NCBI GenBank assembly: GCA_018818145.1
Contig: JAHIST010000006.1
Location: 1 to 38,261, forward strand
Direction of reading: 5' to 3'
Length of the DNA: 38,261 nt
Source: Patescibacteria group bacterium
GTDB taxonomy: Bacteria; Patescibacteriota; Minisyncoccia; Portnoybacterales; GWB1-42-6
Positions 5,791 to 37,257 of this stretch are shown here, in pieces. Position 1 is the stretch's first letter. Each line of letters starts with the position of its first letter. The position numbers and the translations under genes were made by a program. The notes under the pieces are model-generated. The model was not told the origin of the DNA. It did not search any database and worked only from the letters and a program-made list of their open reading frames with translations.

Positions 5791-5825
5791 CCCCAATTAG
5801 ATAGCGCTTCGCGCATCTAACGGGG
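5791..5825. repeat. Palindromic element inside the T-box leader, copy 1
   Basis: CCCCAATTAGATAGCGCTTCGCGCATCTAACGGGG. Confidence 0.85.
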
Positions 5826-5852
5826 TAAAGCTCGCGTAAGCAGCCGACGATA

Positions 5853-29357: not shown

Positions 29358-29498
29358 TAATTACTTAACTTATTCCTTTATAATTTCTACTTTAATTTTA
29401 CCCCAACCGCCTCATAAAAGCAAGGGCAAAACAAGGGTAAAATGTGTATAAATATTGCCTCTAAAACAACAAAAAAACAGGCTTAAAGCCTGATTTTT

Positions 29499-29536
29499 TG
29501 GCGGGCCGTAGGGGATTCGAACCCCTAATCTTCTCC
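29499..29536 (-). tRNA. 3' half of an interrupted tRNA (GGAGA AGATT AGGGG TTCGAAT CCCCT ACGGCCC G CCA)
   Basis: Perfect T stem, acceptor strand complementary to GGGCCGT at 29757-29763, encoded CCA. Confidence 0.75.
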
Positions 29537-29583
29537 CCGCCTTCGCTTAAAGCTACGGCGGGCAAGCGTGATCCCGTTCAAAG

Positions 29584-29659
29584 CGGACCGTGCGGGATTT
29601 GAACCCGCGATCTTCTCCGTGACAGGGAGACGTGTTAGACCAGGCTACACCAACGGTCC
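29584..29659 (-). tRNA. tRNA-Asp (anticodon GTC)
   Basis: GGACCGT TG GTGTAGCCTGGTCTAACAC G TCTCC CTGTCAC GGAGA AGATC GCGGG TTTGAAT CCCGC ACGGTCC G; complete cloverleaf. Confidence 0.95.
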
Positions 29660-29687
29660 GCTTTGAACGGGACAAGCAGAAATAATA

Positions 29688-29763
29688 GGAGACGCGCCTG
29701 CCCCATAGTATCCGAGCTTTACAAGGATTGCTTCGGGGTCAAGCCAGGCTACGCTAACGGCCC
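29688..29763 (-). tRNA. 5' half of an interrupted tRNA, with a hairpin in its D-loop
   Basis: GGGCCGT TA GCGT AGCCTGGC[CCCC...GGGG hairpin]AG GCGC G TCTCC. Confidence 0.7.
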
Positions 29764-29773
29764 ATATTTTGTG

Positions 29774-29846
29774 TAGCAGGGGTGGGGATCGAACCCACGA
29801 CCTCGGGCTTATGAGTCCCACGCTCTACCAACTGAGCTACCCTGCC
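29774..29846 (-). tRNA. tRNA-Met (anticodon CAT), elongator-like
   Basis: GGCAGGGTAGCTCAGTTGGTAGAGCGTGGGACTCATAAGCCCGAGGTCGTGGGTTCGATCCCCACCCCTGCTA. Confidence 0.93.
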
Positions 29847-29989
29847 TCGCTAAAATAAATATATTTTATATTTTCTACGCTCGCTCGGAAATGAAAATAA
29901 ATTTTCATTTCACTCGCTCTCTTAAAAATAACGCCAAAATTAAACACTGTCACTATTTAATCAACGGCGTTAGATTTAAACAAAAAGTG

Positions 29990-30060
29990 TTGCGGGGCCC
30001 GGAATTGCACCGGGGTCTGGGGCTTATGAGACCCCCGAGATACTTCTTCTCCACCCCGCG
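29990..30060 (-). tRNA. tRNA-fMet-like (anticodon CAT), atypical D- and T-loops
   Basis: CGCGGGG TG GAGA AGAAGTA TCTC G GGGGT CTCATAA GCCCC AGAC CCCGG TGCAATT CCGGG CCCCGCA A; C1 x A72 mismatch. Confidence 0.8.
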
Positions 30061-30296
30061 ATAAGTTGTTCTATAATATACCTCTTTTTGATCTTTTTCA
30101 ATTGCATTTCTCTTTTTATAGCTTCTCGCTTTGAGTCATAGGATTCTTCATACACTAACTTCCATGGAATTCCTGATTTTGTTGATCTTGATGTTCCTAA
30201 ATTGTGCTCTTGGATCCTCTTTGCTAATTTTTCAGTCTGACCAATATAATAATGATTATTTTTCAAGCTTTTCAAAATATAAACTTTACATTCCAT
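30024..30296 (-). CDS. GIY-YIG nuclease superfamily protein 2; 3' end overlaps tRNA-fMet
   Basis: MECKVYILKSLKNNHYYIGQTEKLAKRIQEHN...REAIKREMQLKKIKK; ends ...GWRRSISGVS*, stop within fMet anticodon loop. Confidence 0.85.
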   Translation of the reverse strand: MECKVYILKSLKNNHYYIGQTEKLAKRIQEHNLGTSRSTKSGIPWKLVYEESYDSKREAIKREMQLKKIKKRYIIEQLIAGWRRSISGVS

Positions 30297-30303
30297 ATCA
30301 ATT

Positions 30304-30352
30304 CCGAGATATCCTCGTCCTCGACGCCGAAGGCGTCGAGGACGAGGATCTC
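30304..30352. repeat. Palindrome upstream of GIY-YIG gene 2
   Basis: CGAGATATCCTCGTCCTCGACGCCgaaGGCGTCGAGGACGAGGATCTC. Confidence 0.85.
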
Positions 30353-30430
30353 CCGATTTTATCGTGGATCCTCGCCATCTTTGATGGCGGGACTCAAAAT
30401 TATAAAATCTTCGATTTTTAATTTTCGGGA
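30351..30430. repeat. Palindromic element E, copy 2
   Basis: TCCCGATTTTATCGTGGATCCTCG...ATAAAATCTTCGATTTTTAATTTTCGGGA. Confidence 0.8.
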
Positions 30431-30452
30431 CTTCTTCTCCACCCCGCGATAA
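30430..30452 (-). pseudogene. Truncated duplicate of the tRNA-fMet 5' end
   Basis: ACTTCTTCTCCACCCCGCGATAA, identical to 30042-30064 (23/23). Confidence 0.9.
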
Positions 30453-36654: not shown

Positions 36655-37257
36655 TCATCTCCAATTCCAAAACATATCCTCAACTATGATGCTCTGGGTC
36701 TGGTTACGATCGCTCCAGGTCACGCGAGAGACAACTCTTAGCTGATTGTCGGAAAATTTGGTTAAAATAATTTCCCGCTTAAAGGGAGTATCAGCTCCGG
36801 AATCATAGCTATAAAGACCCGTCCCCGCGTCAAATTTTAAAAAATTATTCTGGAGAGCGCCAAAACTATTGCTATTGTACTGCACAGAATAACTATTAGT
36901 CCCGGCCGGAATGCCTGCATGCCAAACATCCCAAGTTCCCAGGTCTATCACAAAAGCAACATCTCTCATATTTTTGACAACTTCAATCCCCTCTTGCGCT
37001 AAATTAGCGGCAATCAGGCGCTGGGCGCTGCTGTTGCCGGCATAGGTGCTCCGGCTAACCAATAAAAGCGCGACCACCAGGCCCATAATAATAATAAAAA
37101 TAGCCACCATTACTTCCAGCAGGCTAAAGCCTGCAGCGCGGAACCACGCGGAATTCACCCCGTTAGATGAACGAGCTCTATAAGCTCTATCTATCGGGGT
37201 AAGCGCGGAACCACGCGGAATTTCTGTAGCATCTTTTTTAATGTGTCTCAAAAACAT
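36655..37257 (-). CDS. Pseudopilin (PilV-like) with repeat-derived leader peptide
   Basis: AAGFSLLEVMVAIFIIIMGLVVALLLVSRS. Confidence 0.85.
   Translation of the reverse strand: MFLRHIKKDATEIPRGSALTPIDRAYRARSSNGVNSAWFRAAGFSLLEVMVAIFIIIMGLVVALLLVSRSTYAGNSSAQRLIAANLAQEGIEVVKNMRDVAFVIDLGTWDVWHAGIPAGTNSYSVQYNSNSFGALQNNFLKFDAGTGLYSYDSGADTPFKREIILTKFSDNQLRVVSRVTWSDRNQTQSIIVEDMFWNWR
37135..37222. repeat. 21-bp direct repeats (37135-37155, 37202-37222) flanking a palindromic element, all in the prepilin leader
   Basis: AGCGCGGAACCACGCGGAATT x2 around CCCCGTTAGATGAACGAGCTCTATAAGCTCTATCTATCGGGG. Confidence 0.85.

Follow-up and report, generated by a model that had tools for sequence, protein, structure and literature searches.

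The window, by which is meant the whole stretch of 38,261 nucleotides analysed here, contains at positions 29763–29499 of the minus strand a tRNA-Asp gene that is broken in its anticodon loop, with a complete tRNA-Asp(GTC) lying within the break. Both halves of the split outer tRNA, with their paired stems and encoded CCA, are found where the original prediction had placed them. The outer tRNA retains a fully complementary acceptor stem (GGGCCGT/ACGGCCC, 7/7), a D stem of four pairs including one G-U (GCGT/GCGC, 4/4), an anticodon stem (TCTCC/GGAGA, 5/5), and a T stem (AGGGG/CCCCT, 5/5), followed by G73 and the CCA. Its 5′ part (29739–29763; GGGCCGTTAGCGTAGCCTGGCTTGA) comprises the 5′ strands of the acceptor and D stems and the start of the D loop, and shares 24 of 25 bases with the intact tRNA-Asp of a related genome, G006 (locus L035). 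The D loop is filled by a hairpin of 38 nt (29738–29701; CCCCGAAGC...CTATGGGG), as had been noted from the sequence, which occurs once in the window's own genome (G000, a draft of 866 kb on 99 contigs); a hairpin also occupies the corresponding D-loop position of a broken tRNA-Asp in genome G010. The end of the D loop, the 3′ strand of the D stem (GCGC, identified by its pairing with GCGT) and the 5′ strand of the anticodon stem (TCTCC) follow at 29688–29700. The remaining half (29499–29536), recognized by its stem pairing and by comparison with G006, consists of the 3′ strand of the anticodon stem, the variable loop, the T arm, the 3′ strand of the acceptor stem, G73, and CCA. A folding check of the 265-nt stretch, proposed with the original prediction, gave a structure more stable than those of its shuffles (z = −6.0).

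The interruption in the anticodon loop is 151 nt long and begins with a left flank (29660–29687), in which a spacer ending in CTTG is followed by the arm TCCCGTTCAAAGC; the same CTTG-(C)CCCG junction recurs in other cassettes of this kind. The inner tRNA-Asp(GTC) at 29583–29659 is the sole match of ARAGORN and Rfam within the nested locus, and is followed by a right arm (GCTTTGAACGGGA, 29572–29584) that is the perfect complement of the left one, such that the acceptor stem of the inner tRNA is prolonged into a perfect inverted repeat of 20 bp, acceptor stem included (29572–29591 with 29653–29672). The 3′ part of the gap (29536–29571) is made up of a junction, TCACGCTTG, and a dispersed hairpin, CCCGCCGTAGCTTTAAGCGAAGGCGGG (CCGCCGTAGC...GCGAAGGCGG), which adjoins the outer 3′ half and of which further copies are found in G000 and in related genomes. 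Directly after the outer CCA lies a hairpin resembling an intrinsic terminator and followed by T7 (29478–29492), identified by consensus match only.

Upstream of the nested locus, on the same strand, are two further intact tRNA genes found with ARAGORN and Rfam, an elongator tRNA-Met (29774–29846), also recognized in relatives, and a tRNA-fMet (29989–30060, called by ARAGORN). A second broken tRNA, of fMet type, is located ∼670 nt farther upstream on the minus strand. Its 5′ half (30304–30448) consists of CGCGGGGTGGAGAAGAAGT (30448–30430) and TATCTCGG (30311–30304), carries hairpins within its D loop, and matches positions 1–19 of tRNA-fMet at 19 of 19 bases. Between this 5′ half and the complete tRNA-fMet, within 30061–30448, sits a gene for a GIY-YIG nuclease-like protein (30061–30296; MECKVYILKSLKNNHYYIGQ...; PF01541 at 30081–30284, 54 bits), which ends against the tRNA-fMet, its open frame continuing into the tRNA.

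In relatives, the genes for tRNA-fMet, tRNA-Met, and tRNA-Asp lie together in a conserved cluster, in which the tRNA-Asp is intact. When the inserts and the anticodon loop are left out, the outer tRNA is identical to the tRNA-Asp at the same locus of G006 at 68 of 70 positions. Intact genes of the outer type occupy the cluster in G006, G008, and G003, all of them relatives from other genera, and in G008 the next reading frame after the cluster is, by eye, recognizably that of the window. The inner tRNA is of a different type and shares 97% identity with the tRNA-Asp of G001 and G005. As the outer type is intact at this locus in relatives and the inner type is found in G001 and G005, the outer gene is, on these comparisons, the former resident tRNA-Asp, and the inner gene comes from another lineage. 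The original prediction, made from the letters of the window alone, had held the anticodon of the outer tRNA to be unassignable; the relatives now identify its isotype as Asp, although the anticodon itself cannot be recovered from the halves. The suggestion of a recently broken tRNA is supported, given that an uninterrupted orthologue exists in relatives such as G006 and that the only intact tRNA-Asp among 44 Rfam tRNA matches in G000 is the inner gene.

The pattern of the D-loop insert, searched for in GTDB and viral contigs, was present as a tRNA only in G010 (L085), which represents the order to which G000 belongs and matches Candidatus Portnoybacteria PFOG01000051 at its tRNA-Asp locus; the other matches had no surrounding tRNA. 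Among 392 genomes of the class, searched with up to two mismatches, it was exact only in G000 and G010; five matches with two mismatches were presumed to be chance. Phage records matched the inner tRNA only. The idea that the tRNA-Asp composites of G000 and G010 represent a single old shared locus was dropped because the same hairpins and cassettes turned up in many tRNAs of both genomes. In two other relatives (L038 in G002 and L056 in G007), an open reading frame that by eye resembles a homing endonuclease of the LAGLIDADG type lies between the tRNA-Met and the tRNA-Asp, directly upstream of the latter.

The arrangement recurs throughout the order. In five of its genomes, own-sequence fragments lie near 42 of 185 intact tRNAs, as compared with 33 of 2076 control comparisons (1.6%; p ∼5e-28). 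In G000 alone, where a slightly less strict cut-off was used, the figure is 14 of 42 intact tRNAs with an own fragment no more than 700 bp away, the control comparisons giving 47 of 1674. Enclosing inverted repeats of at least 9 bases, often starting with CCC(C)G, surround 28 of the 185 tRNAs and 33 of 1593 random sites. Where an orphan T arm lies downstream of an intact tRNA, a 7/7 matching acceptor strand is present upstream, completing an outer pair, in 17 of 30 cases across the five genomes; mismatched pairings gave a 7/7 acceptor match in only 10 of 1127 (Fisher p ∼3e-23). Orphan 3′ halves share the isotype of the neighboring intact tRNA in 29 of 35 instances, 2.5 being expected from the isotype frequencies, with the isotype of each half taken from its best match outside its own genome. 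The six misses include one chance match to a non-tRNA sequence and three from other orders, for which there are few same-order references. Two additional nested cases, Val(CAC) and Pro(TGG) in G043 (L281 and L292), were found among 33 tRNAs of other orders, and nested tRNAs may thus be spread over the class. The view that there is no standard bacterial precedent needs revision: nesting of this type is frequent in this lineage of ultra-small bacteria, even though the open-access literature searched yielded no account of it.

Individual loci, read by eye, display the same architecture with varied insertion points. The Arg(TCT) gene of G000 is divided into ...CTAGCCTTCT and TAAGCTGG... by a cassette carrying Arg(TCT), and has a hairpin in its T loop, whereas in G010 Arg(CCG) the cassette is within the D loop and the remaining outer tRNA is intact. 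In G008, the outer Pro(CGG) parts GAGTCCTT and CGGGGGGATTT enclose a second Pro gene between the arms TTTACCCCGCACC and GGTGCGGGG. Further clean nested cases are Ala and Glu in G004 and Val in G001, and nesting three deep is seen for Thr(TGT) in G000, Val(CAC) in G000 and G004, and Pro(TGG) in G001. Arm-flanked tRNAs with no visible outer tRNA also exist (Arg(TCG) in G001 and Gln(CTG) in G004). The two Pro(CGG) loci are nested reciprocally. The outer gene of G000 is identical to the inner gene of G008 at all 70 aligned bases, and the outer gene of G008 matches the inner gene of G000 at 66 of 72 and also resembles intact genes of G001 and G004, whereas each outer gene differs from its own inner gene at 14–18 positions. 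Each Pro(CGG) type is therefore found inside the other. Such reciprocity results from replacement by incoming tRNAs and not from simple tandem duplication.

A related observation concerns contigs C72 (L106) and C73 (L107) of G000, which carry identical tRNA-Cys genes, each beside a different broken Cys 3′ half; one of these halves is almost the same as the Cys gene that is intact in G010. The pair may represent either two loci or two strains binned together.

The cassettes belong to a larger set of palindromes starting with CCCCG, with or without a tRNA, whose flanks tend to TTCA at one end and CAAG at the opposite one, the elements lying either way round. An element-end score of at least 6 out of 8 was reached by 20 of 38 elements and by 9 of 456 shifted controls; the consensus (TTCA-CCCCG...CGGGG-CAAG) was derived from the same elements and the orientation was fitted, with the controls treated alike, so that the score measures the strength of the consensus and is not an independent test of it. 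In the Asp cassette, the arm end TCCCG is weaker than the consensus, yet the CTTG junction is the same. Element lengths cluster at ∼30 nt and ∼95–110 nt; those of more than 100 nt mostly carry a tRNA, and several of 95–96 nt are intergenic palindromes with none. Exact copies of the arm ACCCCGTTAGAT number 29 in G000, against 0 for its reversed control, and the arm CCCCGCACCTTTT is common to the Val(CAC) and Leu(TAG) cassettes. Beyond their CCC(C)G ends the cassette arms diverge from one another, and the same cassette was not found at two loci within one genome. No transposase or recombinase tied to the elements was found, so that we infer, rather than observe, that the cassettes move as units.

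These features point to a mechanism in which hairpin cassettes carrying a tRNA probably displace the cognate resident tRNA genes. At the locus described here, the resident tRNA-Asp would now be a dead, interrupted remnant, and the interruption is a short hairpin cassette in which a pair of complementary arms frames an intact tRNA-Asp of different lineage. This inner tRNA would be made from the cassette and would replace the resident. The hairpin in the outer D loop has no cargo, and a third hairpin lies against the outer 3′ half. Such cassettes and empty hairpins are present across the genomes of the order and sit in tRNA genes, in the loop of the D, anticodon, or T arm; a cassette within a tRNA gene nearly always brings a tRNA of matching amino-acid identity. 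The isotype match may arise because the cell would lack the tRNA if the cargo were any other, or because sequence shared between tRNAs directs the insertion. Where a single-copy tRNA is destroyed, the insertion would survive only when it brings that tRNA, and repeated insertion would produce the Russian-doll loci. A broader proposal is that the cassettes constitute a new selfish element: a hairpin transposon reduced to a minimum, with a tRNA gene as its sole cargo, which lands in the resident gene for the same tRNA, each insertion thereby making the element indispensable; rival invasions would then generate the dolls and move essential tRNA genes between lineages. We consider this broader proposal evenly balanced.

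The alternative that survives best, although it is unlikely, is local duplication with hairpin decay, in which tandem or template-switch copies arise, palindromes accumulate in the redundant copy, and its pieces come to surround the intact one with no mobile cassette involved. Such a process could account for the many intergenic palindromes that carry no tRNA, for the several loci (Lys, Met) that consist of only a 5′ piece, a hairpin, and a complete tRNA, and for the failure to find a mobilizing enzyme. Tandem copies, however, do not end up inside a loop of their partner between complementary arms. In addition, the outer genes for Asp, Pro, Thr, Leu(GAG), Glu, and Ala are closer to tRNAs of other genomes than to their own inner genes, the outer Ala 3′ half beside the intact Ala(CGC) of G000 matching an Ala gene outside G000 at 30 of 30 bases, and the reciprocal nesting of Pro(CGG) likewise argues against duplication in place.

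Homing by GIY-YIG nucleases is a second alternative, which we judge improbable. Here the nuclease would cut a tRNA gene and repair would import the nuclease gene together with a complete tRNA, the nested tRNAs being either products of this process or leftovers after loss of the nuclease. About 7 of the 12 GIY-YIG genes of G000 lie within ∼160 bp of a tRNA gene, including the one beside tRNA-fMet in the window, and the neighboring tRNAs are those for fMet, Asn, Cys, Pro, and Lys; this proximity is much commoner than the number of GIY-YIG genes would lead one to expect. Moreover, the Asp locus of G010 (L060/L085, 230–1151) alternates tRNA pieces with two such genes, in the order broken 5′ half, decayed Asp, GIY-YIG, intact Asp, GIY-YIG, Asp 3′ fragment, with an in-frame stop in the second nuclease gene. 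The Asp cassette of the window and most other cassettes, in contrast, contain no nuclease gene, and hairpin elements are also found far from any GIY-YIG gene. As the mobilizing enzyme, the tRNA-associated GIY-YIG genes are a lead only.

A further possibility, raised in the original prediction, is that the outer tRNA is functional, the inserts being cut from the RNA and the halves joined to give two tRNAs per precursor. The intact stems and the terminator-like hairpin after the outer CCA would be compatible with this. The tRNA splicing endonuclease (PF01974), however, was detected in 0 of 23 genomes of the order, with four archaeal controls positive, and the group I intron model had no match in the window, where only tRNA matches were returned. 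Next to the outer anticodon stem lie TATTATT... and ...GGCGG where CTGTCAC would be expected, and consequently removal of the insert fails to restore a 7-nt anticodon loop with an Asp anticodon; the D-loop insert would also have to be removed. Similar damage is seen elsewhere in G000, where the anticodon bases of the outer Pro(CGG) and the T-loop bases of the outer Arg and Ile genes are replaced. As to whether the outer tRNA is needed, for which a census of anticodons had been suggested, tRNA-Asp is already provided by the inner gene, and none of the isotypes turned up solely in interrupted form. Intact His was not found in G000, nor intact His or Cys in G008, and these were considered as candidates for such isotypes; no clear halves of them were found either, and they were read as assembly gaps. 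Splicing is thus unsupported, because the Asp anticodon is unrecoverable, the endonuclease is absent, and the inner gene provides the tRNA. Intact stems are expected of recent remnants and therefore do not demonstrate function. We regard a functional outer tRNA as highly improbable, and it presumably yields no product.

That the nesting is an assembly artefact of metagenome bins is scarcely credible: every genome examined is a draft of 8 to 220 contigs and G010 corresponds to a metagenome-assembled genome, but the same architecture appears on long contigs in several separate genomes from two families and another order, with perfectly complementary arms and matching acceptor strands.

Displacement by tRNA-carrying cassettes, the preferred reading, can be compared with several known systems. 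Rickettsia palindromic elements and mitochondrial double-hairpin elements are short dispersed palindromes that insert within genes; like the cassettes, they enter RNA or protein genes and can nest. To our knowledge, no such palindromic element has an intact tRNA in its loop or lies within a tRNA of the same isotype. The elements described here do have the multiple palindromes and shared ends of dispersed palindromic elements. As far as the open-access literature searched and general knowledge go, tRNA cargo combined with cognate landing is undescribed for a palindromic element. The integrative elements that target tRNA genes are phages with tyrosine recombinases, ICEs, and genomic islands. They resemble the cassettes in entering a tRNA gene and preserving the cell's supply of that tRNA. 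The insert here, however, is 151 nt long, with no integrase and no room for its gene, and whereas those elements restore one half of the target, both outer halves are broken here and a whole second tRNA is supplied inside. REP/RAYT systems also consist of small dispersed hairpins with defined ends, and we know of no REPs with a cargo tRNA. The Y1 transposase on which such systems depend is absent from three of the five element-bearing genomes (G000, G001, and G004), and RAYT was rejected as the mobilizer on this ground.

Other interrupted tRNA genes differ in their processing. The tRNA introns of Thermoproteales are mobile inserts that move between tRNAs (Fujishima 2010, cited in PMC10714607); their splicing, by an endonuclease that is absent here, takes place at bulge-helix-bulge motifs, and they contain no tRNA. 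The split and permuted tRNA genes of Archaea and red algae likewise have a tRNA in two separated pieces (PMC4390854, PMC3978253). Here the pieces are in the order 5′ then 3′, have a working copy of the same tRNA between them, and bear no sign of joining. The features of the locus place it outside group I introns, archaeal split or bulge-helix-bulge-spliced tRNAs, tRNA-targeting integrative elements, and REP/RAYT systems.

Genes for tRNAs are usually counted among the core genes that are stable and inherited vertically. The essential single-copy tRNAs of these tiny genomes seem to have been overwritten repeatedly by copies arriving as the cargo of short hairpins. If confirmed, this would be a case in which an element with no protein gene becomes indispensable by killing and replacing its target gene. 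The broken outer copies would constitute a readable record of past replacements, which makes the process directly testable by strain comparison. Caution is also warranted in tRNA annotation and tRNA phylogeny in Patescibacteria.

Hairpin elements are additionally present away from tRNA genes. In the window, further copies of the arm ACCCCGTTAGAT are located at 5815–5826 and 37157–37168. On contigs C46 and C91 of G000 (L118–L125 and L136–L140), near-identical palindromes of 95–98 bp (ACCCCGTTAGAT ... ATCTAACGGGGT) recur in several intergenic spacers that also hold other nested palindromes, in a neighborhood that resembles ribosomal genes, by look only.
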